Positions 5,249 to 50,607 of a stretch of DNA of 64,000 bases are shown one piece after another. Positions within the stretch are counted from its first letter, which is position 1; each line of letters opens with the position of its first letter. The notes under the pieces are model-generated. The model saw only the letters and a program-made list of their open reading frames with translations. It ran no database searches and was not told the DNA's origin. Both the position numbers and the translations under genes were made by a program. Source of the stretch: Gemmatimonadaceae bacterium (GTDB lineage Bacteria > Gemmatimonadota > Gemmatimonadetes > Gemmatimonadales > Gemmatimonadaceae); the NCBI GenBank assembly GCA_019752115.1, contig JAIEMN010000024.1, forward strand, positions 62,001 through 126,000, in the 5' to 3' direction.

Positions 5249-6778
5249 ATGGCTGCTCGATTCTCTCGCTTCCGTTTTGCCTCTGCCGCCGTCCTTTGCT
5301 TCGGCGCAGGCGTGTTGTTCGCGTCCGGCATGGACTGGACGAAGATCAGCTGGGCGCAGAGCCCCACCTCGCCGCGCGCGAATGTCATTGGTCGCGGGCC
5401 GGCTGGGCCGGAGGGGAACGCCTCCTTTGCCGACATCGCCGAGCGCGTGACGCCGGCGGTCGTCGCCGTGAACACCACCAAGTCCTACAAGCCCCGCGCG
5501 CAGATCCGCGGCCGCGTCCCGCAGGGGATGGAGGACTTCCTCGACCAGTTCGGCGGCCAGCAGCCGCGCCAGTCGCGTGGCGAAGGCTCCGGCTTCATCC
5601 TCTCGGCTGACGGCTACATCGTCACCAACAATCACGTGGTGGCCGATGCCGACCAGGTTTCGATCACCCTGAGCGACGGCCGCACCTTCCGCGCGAAGGT
5701 CATCGGCACCGACTCCACGACCGACGTGGCCGTGGTGAAGATCGACGCCAAGGGGCTCCCGACGCTGACGACCGGCGACGACGAGCGCACGCGCATCGGT
5801 GAGTGGGTTCTCGCCGTGGGCAACCCGCTCGGCCTCGACTTCACGGTCACCGCCGGCATCATCTCGGCCAAGGGCCGCGGCTCGGAGATTCAGCTGCCGA
5901 ACGCCGGCAACTTCACGATCTCCGACTTCATCCAGACCGACGCCGTGATCAACCCGGGGAACTCGGGTGGCCCGCTGATCAACCTGCGCGGTGAAGTGAT
6001 CGGCCTGAACAGCGCGATCATGTCGCAGACCGGCTTCTACTCGGGCTACGGCTTCGCGATTCCGATCACGCTGGTGAAGAGCGTGGCCGATGACCTGATC
6101 AAGGAAGGGCGCGTGCGCATCCCGGTGATCGGCGTCTCGGTCGGGCGCATCGATCCGGAAGATGCCGGCATCAACGGTCTCTCGAAGGTGGCCGGTGTGA
6201 AGGTCGGCGGCTTCAATCCGCCCGATGGCGGCCCGGCGAAGGCGGCGGGCATCGAAGTCGGCGACGTGATCATCTCCGTGGACAACAAGCCGATCGATCG
6301 CGTCAGCGCGCTGCAGCGCATCGTGCGCTCGCACAAGGTGGGCGAGATCGTGCCGGTCGAGGTGATGCGCTTCGGCACCAAGAAGAGCTTCAAGGTGAAG
6401 CTCGCCGAGGCCGATCCGACCGGTGTGGTGGCGGCGGTCAATCCGAACGTCGATCGCCCGGGCACGGCCCCGGCGGCCGGCAAGCTCGGGTTGTCGGTGG
6501 AGCCGCTCCCCGCGGAGGTCGCGGATCGCCTCAAGACGGGCGGCCGCGGCGTGCGGGTAGCCGAGGTGAACGAAGACGGCCCAGCGCGCGACAAGATCGC
6601 CGCCGGGAGCGACGTGATCCTCGAGCTGCGCTACCCCACCCGCAAGGACATCCGCAGCGTGGGCGACCTGCAGGCCGCGCTGAGCGGGCTCAAGGAAGGC
6701 GACTACGTGAGCCTGCTGGTGCAGAGCATGGACCCGCGGCTGGGGCAGCGGATTGTGAACCTGCGAATCGGCGGCTAA
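5249..6778 (+). CDS. Periplasmic trypsin-like serine protease, HtrA/DegP family
   Basis: Envelope quality-control protease of 509 residues. A single N-terminal hydrophobic segment (about residues 10-27) acts as signal or anchor. The protease domain carries the triad H129 (TNNHVV), D159 (TTDVAVV) and S239 (GNSGGP). Two PDZ domains follow, at roughly 290-390 and 415-505, as in DegP/DegQ. ATG 5249 is preferred to the in-frame GTG at 5207 because it gives a compact signal sequence. The gene lies between the dnaK terminator and a 74-bp palindrome. Together with dnaK it makes a stress-protein neighbourhood. I do not choose between degP, degQ and degS. Confidence 0.93.
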   Translation: MAARFSRFRFASAAVLCFGAGVLFASGMDWTKISWAQSPTSPRANVIGRGPAGPEGNASFADIAERVTPAVVAVNTTKSYKPRAQIRGRVPQGMEDFLDQFGGQQPRQSRGEGSGFILSADGYIVTNNHVVADADQVSITLSDGRTFRAKVIGTDSTTDVAVVKIDAKGLPTLTTGDDERTRIGEWVLAVGNPLGLDFTVTAGIISAKGRGSEIQLPNAGNFTISDFIQTDAVINPGNSGGPLINLRGEVIGLNSAIMSQTGFYSGYGFAIPITLVKSVADDLIKEGRVRIPVIGVSVGRIDPEDAGINGLSKVAGVKVGGFNPPDGGPAKAAGIEVGDVIISVDNKPIDRVSALQRIVRSHKVGEIVPVEVMRFGTKKSFKVKLAEADPTGVVAAVNPNVDRPGTAPAAGKLGLSVEPLPAEVADRLKTGGRGVRVAEVNEDGPARDKIAAGSDVILELRYPTRKDIRSVGDLQAALSGLKEGDYVSLLVQSMDPRLGQRIVNLRIGG

Positions 6779-6790
6779 CCCGCCTATTCA

Positions 6791-6864
6791 CTCGAAACCC
6801 CATCCCGGTACCCAAACCCCGAACCGATCGGTTCGGGGTTTGGGTACCGGGATGGGGTTTCGAG
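6791..6864. terminator. 74-bp perfect palindrome between convergent genes (bidirectional terminator)
   Basis: Bases 6791-6827 are the exact reverse complement of 6828-6864, giving 37-bp arms with no spacer and the centre at CCGATCGG. The palindrome starts 12 bases after the htrA stop and ends 2 bases before the stop codon of the facing outer-membrane protein gene. Its placement fits a shared terminator for both strands, but it is far longer than a usual terminator stem. Each arm also contains GGTACC. Confidence 0.75.
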
Positions 6865-6866
6865 CT

Positions 6867-7439
6867 TTAGCGGCCGAGTGGGTAGATACTTACCCCCACA
6901 TTCACCCGCGTCTGCGTGCTGGTGTACGTCCCCGCGGGCGCGTTGGTGCTGAGCTGGTTGGCCCGCGTCAGGTTGCCGTAGGTCCAGAGCGCGGTGCCAT
7001 TCAGCGCGATATGCGGCGTGACAAAGAGCTGCACGCCGGCACCGCCGGTGGGGGCGATGCTCTTGAAGTCGGTGCCCTTGGAGGCCGAGCGGCCGGTGGC
7101 GCCTCCGGTGGCGTAGAGCTGGAAGGGCGACCCGCTGCCCAGCAGGGTGAGGCGTGCGAGCGCGTCGTACTGGGTGAGGGTGACATCGGCGGCATCGCGG
7201 GTGAGCACACTGCGATCGAAGTTCGCCAGCACCGCCCAGCGGGATCCGGCCAGCCCGGCGTGCAGGCCAAAGCCGCTGCCGAACTTGAGGTCATTGGCGG
7301 CGTCCTTCACGCTCACCGAGCTGCCGGAATACTGAATGCCCACGAAGGGCCCGGCCTGCGCCTGGGCCACGGGCGCTCCGGCCACCGAGAGCGCCAGGCC
7401 GACCGCAAGCCGGCTCCACGTCGGGTGTGTTCGCTGCAT
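6867..7439 (-). CDS. Small outer-membrane beta-barrel protein
   Basis: A 190-residue exported protein with a clear signal peptide ending at AQAQA (about residue 28). The mature part alternates hydrophobic and polar residues in short strands separated by Gly/Asn/Ser turns, and it ends in strands of the type TRVNVGVSIYPLGR. This is typical of the eight-stranded OmpA/OmpX/OmpW-like barrels. There is no peptidoglycan-binding domain. It is convergent with htrA across the 74-bp palindrome and divergent from the PhoX-like gene. No specific ligand or function can be assigned. Confidence 0.7.
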   Translation of the reverse strand: MQRTHPTWSRLAVGLALSVAGAPVAQAQAGPFVGIQYSGSSVSVKDAANDLKFGSGFGLHAGLAGSRWAVLANFDRSVLTRDAADVTLTQYDALARLTLLGSGSPFQLYATGGATGRSASKGTDFKSIAPTGGAGVQLFVTPHIALNGTALWTYGNLTRANQLSTNAPAGTYTSTQTRVNVGVSIYPLGR

Positions 7440-26111: not shown

Positions 26112-26193
26112 GCGGACGTGGCGAAATTGGTAGACGCACCAGCCTTAGGAGCTGGCGGGGCAACCCATCCCGGTTCGAGTCCGGGCGTTCGCA
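26112..26193 (+). tRNA. tRNA-Leu (anticodon TAG)
   Basis: An 82-base class II tRNA. The acceptor GCGGACG pairs with CGTTCGC (one G-T wobble), and the discriminator is A26193. The D-loop contains AAATTGGTAGACGCA. The anticodon stem CCAGC/GCTGG encloses loop CTTAGGA with anticodon TAG at 26146-26148, which reads CTA and other CTN leucine codons. A long variable arm precedes the T-arm with GGTTCGAGTCC. CCA is not encoded. It ends 8 bases before the stop of the convergent acyltransferase gene. Confidence 0.95.
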
Positions 26194-50465: not shown

Positions 50466-50518
50466 GCCTTTGTGCCGGGGGCCAGACCTCAACCCCCGAG
50501 AGTTCAGGACGAAGAAGA

Positions 50519-50567
50519 TCAGGGGGGAGAGCTCAGGACCACCGCGGTCCTGAGCTCTCCCCCCTGA
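50519..50567. terminator. 22-bp-stem bidirectional terminator after mobA and malic enzyme
   Basis: Bases 50519-50540 are the perfect reverse complement of 50546-50567, with loop ACCGC. The feature lies between the convergent mobA and malic enzyme stops. On the plus strand it is followed by AATTTCT. Related partial copies flank it (AACCCCCGAGAGTTCAGG upstream, CTCCCCCCTGAGCTCTCAG downstream). Confidence 0.75.
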
Positions 50568-50575
50568 ATTTCTCC

Positions 50576-50593
50576 CCCCTGAGCTCTCAGGGG
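50576..50593. repeat. Second small palindrome related to the adjoining terminator
   Basis: CCCCTGAG at 50576-50583 pairs with CTCAGGGG at 50586-50593 across two bases. It shares its sequence with the right arm of the larger hairpin, so the two could form alternative structures. It lies 14 bases from the malic enzyme stop and may serve the minus strand. Confidence 0.45.
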
Positions 50594-50607
50594 TTAGCAA
50601 ACCATCC

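Follow-up and report, generated by a model that had tools for sequence, protein, structure and literature searches.

A perfect palindrome of 74 bp, located between htrA and a facing outer-membrane protein gene, is most probably, with a probability that we put at about 0.6, one of a set of dispersed palindromes in Gemmatimonas which resemble REPs without being REPs and which would act as bidirectional hairpins at transcript ends. The window, that is, the whole stretch of 64,000 nucleotides that was analyzed, corresponds to C24:62001-126000 of a source genome (G000) of 5.17 Mb in 83 contigs with 97.14% completeness, and its features are collected in the table. The genus would be Gemmatimonas judging from the names of HtrA relatives: HtrA of 75-81% identity is encoded at 13 named loci of the GTDB species set, all in metagenome assemblies, whose names are bacterium, Gemmatimonadetes or Gemmatimonadaceae, and Gemmatimonas in three.

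Table. Features of the window and the basis on which each was assigned.
Feature	Position	Strand	Basis
Perfect 74-bp palindrome, diverged relative (A') of family A	6791..6864		Self-complementarity; relatives in the genome
Convergent junction htrA / OMP gene, 88 bp	6779..6866		Gene calls
HtrA-like serine protease gene, Trypsin_2 + PDZ (putative start; open frame from 5207)	5252..6778	+	PF13365 1.5e-36, PF13180 3.4e-20
Outer-membrane beta-barrel gene, OMP_b-brl, facing htrA	6867..7439	-	PF13505 1.5e-9
Second long hairpin, word family C, at a convergent junction	50491..50595		50-nt arms, 86% complementary, 5-nt loop

The two arms of the palindrome (6791-6827 and 6828-6864, 37 nt each) are 100% complementary with a spacer of 0 nt, that is, the 74-mer is its own reverse complement, as the initial annotation of this DNA had claimed. 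It was also correct as to the coordinates, the 88-bp junction and the facing stop codon 2 bp away (the htrA frame reaches its stop at 6778, the OMP frame at 6867); 12 bp are left on the other side. RNA of 6779-6876 is predicted to fold with -83.1 kcal/mol, compared with -34.6 +/- 3.5 for shuffled sequences (z -13.8; 0 of 200). In a scan of the window for arms of at least 18 nt that are at most 200 nt apart, it was the sole perfect palindrome of such size, and the imperfect hairpin at 50491-50595 was the one longer pair, both among the 25 of 26 pairs listed. Rfam gave no match above the gathering score at the palindrome, the only match in the window being a tRNA at 26112-26193. The claim that such palindromes are usually unstable was too strong, as the same assembly holds longer, less perfect ones with 52-nt arms and 4 or 7 mismatches. 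In E. coli, palindromes become clearly unstable only beyond 74 bp.

How often do such hairpins occur in this genome, and where? Scored as matches minus three per mismatch, 21 hairpins reach 20 or more in 789,074 bp of the source genome (26.6 per Mb), while none did so when six genome samples of up to 200 kb were each Markov-shuffled three times. They are distributed over 10 convergent and 11 co-directional junctions, with none at divergent junctions or within genes, although 84 convergent, 425 co-directional and 90 divergent junctions were available; 8 of the 11 co-directional ones are closer to the stop than to the start. Genes were called with a simple codon-usage script, and hairpins with a finder of ungapped arms, so that bulged hairpins are missed, as one htrA locus (L021, see below) demonstrates. 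Other genomes of the genus have 7.5 per Mb (3 in 400 kb; G029), 5.0 per Mb (1 in 200 kb; G021) and 15.0 per Mb (6 in 400 kb; G028), the last of which may be high because this stretch was picked around known family-A matches. In small samples, none was seen in 100 kb of G033, of the same family, nor in 49.7 kb of G043, of the same order.

The arms of these hairpins consist of short recurring words in several word families: ACCC words around AACTGATCAGTT in family A, CACAGAG in family B, and CAGGGGGGAGAGCTCAGG in family C, which includes the second long hairpin of the window. Sorting by word motifs placed 10, 4 and 7 arms in families A, B and C, with one of the 21 arms in two lists and one unassigned. 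Over the 21 arms, self-identity is 0.46 at lag 7 (z 8.3 against composition shuffles) and 0.42 at lag 14 (z 5.3), and it rises to 0.58 at lag 7 (z 8.2) in family A alone; random intergenic 42-mers, taken as a control, reach z 3.5 at lag 7, but with an identity of only 0.30. The heptad is not dominant in family B, which peaks at lag 9 (0.46, z 5.0), or in family C, which peaks at lag 14 (0.46, z 5.9). Five arms from G028 peak at lag 13 (0.40, z 4.0), and so does the 74-mer alone (0.67, z 4.0), whose identity at lag 7 is 0.50 (z 2.0). Words of about 13 nt are found in a further hairpin (L048:15821-15921, that is, G000:C20:155821-155921), each arm of which is three copies of GCGCATACGTGG and which represents one more word family. 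Intergenic words of 7 nt arranged in series are known from the STRR heptads of cyanobacteria. Some minor observations belong here: hairpins similar to the family-C hairpin of the window occur elsewhere in the genome, L045:4605-4704 (G000:C24:204605-204704) is a family-B hairpin with CACAGAG words, and at other convergent junctions there are shorter hairpins whose GCGCGCTTCG core is similar. When the L045 hairpin was compared with 249 genomes of the phylum, the source genome and five others matched, the latter over only about 26-35 of 100 nt; this is a weak test, as at most three first-look candidates were scored per genome.

A search of the genome brought up relatives of the 74-mer. The closest, at G000:C20:255671-255763 (73% identity, E 8.6e-12), is a hairpin with 42-nt arms located 3 bp past a stop codon, and a perfect palindrome with 28-nt arms at C20:254427-254482 has centre words like those of the 74-mer, while no second copy of the full 74-mer was found in the genome. 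The 74-mer has the centre and the ACCC words in common with the 80-bp palindromes of heptad words which make up family A, and differs from them in the register of the outer arm; therefore, it is classed as a diverged subfamily, A', in which one close relative of it was found. Partial matches to the 74-mer are present in 4 of the 29 other genomes of the genus.

Family A itself is abundant. The 80-mer from C24:156153 is found in at least 43 places of the source genome (40 of 72 first-look candidates scored), and a covariance-model search added at least 7 further places among the matches listed. As a DNA query at E 0.001 it detected 12 of 30 genus genomes (the source genome included) and none of 31 others, while the model detected 17 of 25 genus genomes, with no match among those listed in the other 8, and, weakly, 2 of 16 others (best E 2.4e-4 and 3.1e-4). 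Judged by these searches, family A appears almost confined to the genus among the genomes covered. Of 20 stretches from eight other genus genomes, 14 contain a hairpin centred exactly on AACTGATCAGTT, 4 have a close variant of this centre and 2 a different one, and outside the centre the hairpins of other genomes carry different words.

Family A prefers the ends of genes. Among 36 collected copies, 27 had called genes on both sides, and these lie at 19 convergent, 8 co-directional and no divergent junctions; with intergenic length taken into account, the excess at convergent junctions has a P of about 1e-10 and the deficit at divergent ones a P of 3e-4 in these 27 copies. Six of the 8 co-directional copies are closer to a stop than to a start. 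One copy, at C24:30758, is at a divergent junction in one gene call, and it was counted among the 9 of unknown position because its locus is cut.

It is to be noted that the family-A stem has two parts. The inner stem is mismatched in 27 of 435 cells and the outer stem in 84 of 638, and in 44 of 58 arms 4-5 T follow right after the inner stem. Read from its letters, this anatomy is that of a bidirectional intrinsic terminator within a longer stem. A bidirectional terminator was also one of the possibilities raised for the 74-mer at the outset, and this idea gains from the position of hairpins at the 25 htrA junctions of the genus (see below), from the convergent excess, and from the T-run after the inner stem on both strands of family A. 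The 74-mer itself has a GC-rich stem at a convergent junction and lacks the U-tract 3' of the stem that such a terminator has on both strands: CTTTAG directly follows a palindrome arm, no clear U-tract is found on the 74-mer, and a simple terminator scan did not have 6791-6864 among its calls. For this reason, intrinsic termination on the one hand and RNA protection or Rho-assisted ending on the other are equally likely for the 74-mer.

The two arms of family-A copies change together. From 33 in-register copies four were set aside (the 74-mer, C20:254454 and L187:139, all three A'-like, and one with a shifted arm), and covariation was taken from family A and not from A' because A' has too few members. 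In the remaining 29 copies 92.5% of cells are paired, and 63 cells are changed on both sides, compared with 28.3 +/- 4.8 in letter shuffles (0 of 500), a comparison which is inflated by the shared ancestry of the copies. When the partner is slid by 1-3 columns, changes on both sides fall to 2-7. The 61 concerted changes of the real copies compare with a mean of 27.9 and a maximum of 42 in 2000 permutations of whole arms among copies, and their 1039 paired cells of 1160 with 969.6; one-sided changes, 121, are twice as many as the concerted 61.

The genus-wide comparison of the htrA junction covers 25 loci including that of the window; four other genomes have weaker paralogues only, and in one htrA is split over contigs. 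An ungapped hairpin with arms of 10 to 48 nt lies 3' of htrA at 24 of the 25 loci, and the remaining locus, L021, has a hairpin with gaps (z -7.1). At distances of up to 150 nt from the htrA stop, 23 of the 25 loci have a score of 9 or more and 14 a score of 13 or more, where 0.43 and 0.05, respectively, are expected from shuffles. The gene after htrA faces it at 18 loci, runs in the same direction at 4 and is uncalled in orientation at 3. Eight relatives have the OMP orthologue in the facing position, and two have it further downstream. Comparison of 23 junction hairpins at E 0.001 linked six of them (L009, L010, L013, L014, L017 and L022) and matched L006 to L011, while the other 15, the 74-mer included, matched no other. 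Thus, the position of the hairpin is kept and its sequence differs between lineages. Between L006 and L011, identity over 4.5 kb is 94.1% and one long hairpin is shared, which means that hairpins of this kind are inherited. By eye, their entire junction of about 220 bp resembles one nested hairpin of TGAG/CTCA words, and words like these are also present in L015 and L021; the six linked loci have a related short hairpin, most with a GGGCGGC.TCGC stem.

How might the palindrome have come to its present place, and what might it do there? Of the 84 convergent junctions of the survey, a long hairpin is present at 10, a shorter one with a score of 9-19 at 25, and none of score 9 or more at 49; the median gap of the last group is 17 bp. 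What is left besides the hairpin at the long-hairpin junctions is 5 to 173 bp, with 42 bp or less at 6 of the 10. The 14 bp left at the htrA/OMP junction resemble a hairpin-free junction and fit the arrival of a complete element in a compact junction, while 4 of the 10 leave 80-173 bp, unlike a filled compact gap. The palindrome was thus probably acquired between htrA and the OMP gene as one unit. It would now be the 3'-end hairpin of both transcripts, since RNA from either direction would form the same stem of 35 pairs with a 4-nt loop. Such a hairpin could end or pause transcription, cap the RNA against 3' exonucleases, or both, and would in this way insulate the two convergent genes from each other. 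More generally, dispersed hairpins at gene ends may mark or protect mRNA ends from both directions.

Another possibility is that we are looking at a neutral or selfish repeat, which has spread by a DNA mechanism, either a transposase or strand switching at the replication fork, and is tolerated at 3' ends without any role in transcription. Similar copies are indeed dispersed in the genome, and expansions differ between genomes, with at least 91, 78 and 92 strand matches to the family-A model in G000, G001 and G022, respectively. A hairpin is not required at convergent junctions, as seen from the 49 of 84 whose hairpin score stays below 9, and the convergent bias could also arise because insertion there harms least; such a "least worst" location has been argued for repeats of Pseudomonas fluorescens in the accessible part of PMC2718517. 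Against this stand the hairpins of mostly different sequence at the htrA junction of the genus loci examined, the covarying arms of family A, and the long hairpin common to genomes that are 94% identical.

Searches for a spreading mechanism also bear on this reading. No match to the RAYT transposase (Y1_Tnp, PF01797) was obtained in the source genome, 97.14% complete, while 5 of 14 control genomes were positive. Direct repeats of 3-8 nt in the flanks of 29 family-A copies were no better than in permuted flanks, in a test limited by uncertain element ends and by the possible loss of duplications from old copies. Three pairs of copies lie close together, and by eye the genes that they enclose resemble normal genes of the host; we take these to be SRP54-like, creatininase-like and YdeI-like. 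A transposase-borne origin was rejected on these three grounds, and, on the whole, we consider the neutral reading rather unlikely. One degenerate family-A pattern had no exact match in IMG/VR contigs, and SbcD, a palindrome nuclease, gave two matches in the source genome, both below the curated cut-off. The suggestion that the 74-mer is a small inverted-repeat element holds in so far as related palindromes lie elsewhere in the genome, and not in the sense of a repeated 74-mer, which was found here only, or of an element with a RAYT-type transposase or a target duplication.

It might also be possible that the palindrome works at the DNA level, as a cruciform or protein-binding site, or as an RNase III substrate formed by overlapping antisense transcripts. 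Family A keeps its skeleton of words beyond the needs of pairing: across 58 arms, 17 of the 40 positions never change, and the two-base slots between the words vary. In addition, mismatches of the A-C type (38) are no rarer than those of the G-T type (34; other types 49), which fits either both strands mattering or a constraint on the DNA. Part of this invariance, however, reflects the collection filter, under which copies had to contain the GATC centre with AAC/GTT neighbours; most of the six central arm positions are fixed in this way, and the remainder is not. We regard these alternatives as improbable.

A plain bidirectional intrinsic terminator, which evolved in place, is unrelated to other sites and became long and perfect by chance, would agree with the shorter hairpins at the same junction in most relatives (of the 23 with an ungapped hairpin, 20 have arms of 10 to 23 nt). 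The stem of 37 bp is far beyond the need of a terminator and has no clear U-tract, and the 74-mer has sequence relatives elsewhere in the genome, of which C20:255671 already weakens this reading; hence, we hold it to be quite improbable. Lastly, a fold-back chimera of assembly or amplification, which the fragmented assembly might bring to mind and against which the initial annotation had warned, is hardly credible, because near-perfect long hairpins, some with related words, occur in the one-contig genomes G028, G029 and G021 and so are not products of fragmented assembly, related copies are found in other parts of this genome, family copies differ in both arms together, both flanking genes are open, and the junction has a hairpin in relatives.

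The reading of the palindrome as a REP-like, non-REP hairpin at transcript ends can be set beside known systems. REPs lie 3' of genes in over 80 species, and the Gemmatimonas elements are like them, as far as the accessible part of PMC3733652 goes, in being palindromes 3' of genes, mostly at convergent or co-directional junctions, with several families per genome; family A has many copies, mostly downstream of genes. REPs are 20-40 bp long, with GTAG/CGTC tags and RAYT (in the same part of PMC3733652), whereas the element at 6791-6864 is 74 bp and those of family A are 80 bp, the tags GTAG, CTAC, CGTC and GACG are absent from the 74-mer and from all 29 family-A 80-mers, and no Y1 match was found. 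Because tags, size and transposase all differ, these elements may work like REPs without being filed as REPs. Nor do they pass for MITEs, as no target-site duplication was detected in the 29 copies, and many copies lack the core that terminal inverted repeats would enclose. The R0, R1 and R2 repeats of P. fluorescens, which the accessible part of PMC2718517 describes as dispersed and strain-specific, having a tail-repeat-tail bias and inverted repeats that reach 43 bp, and discusses as both MITE-like and terminator-like, are similar in favouring gene 3' ends; there, inverted repeats flank a core, while many Gemmatimonas palindromes are coreless and loopless with arms that are arrays of words, so the two are set apart by description. 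Stem-loops favour convergent gaps in 40 bacterial genomes, and the order of A-run, GC stem and T-run in bidirectional intrinsic terminators, together with their convergent preference, returns in family A (compared with the accessible part of PMC1590033), in which, unlike in those terminators, the unit sits in a much longer stem that is repeated in the genome; the 74-mer has no T-run. The heptanucleotides TAACTGA of Beggiatoaceae are, like the Gemmatimonas arms, intergenic 7-nt words in series, but according to the accessible part of PMC4679880 they are direct repeats located particularly upstream of starts, whereas the Gemmatimonas heptads form both arms of palindromes past stops.

In the open-access literature (open-licence PMC), we found no description of heptad-word palindromes with compensated slots, nor of the Gemmatimonas elements. 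A tentative and still doubtful proposal is that they make up a new class of interspersed elements, spacerless palindromes of heptad words in which the skeleton is near-invariant and the two-base slots vary, often with pair compensation, and which would spread and be kept symmetric without RAYT through gain or loss of units in one arm followed by strand-switch copying, and would serve as exchangeable 3' transcript ends. The findings point to Gemmatimonas as a genus where part of the gene-end hairpins derive from dispersed, word-built palindromes, and to the htrA junction as a case where the place of the hairpin is constant and its sequence depends on the lineage. By what process are long, near-perfect palindromes copied, and how do they stay symmetric, if no known transposase takes part? 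Are repeats at convergent ends terminators, or merely tolerated there? Both questions have become testable with this set. In one family-A copy, at L183:1496-1585, the outer arm ends in TAG / CTA, and by our own gene calls both facing stop codons are inside the palindrome.
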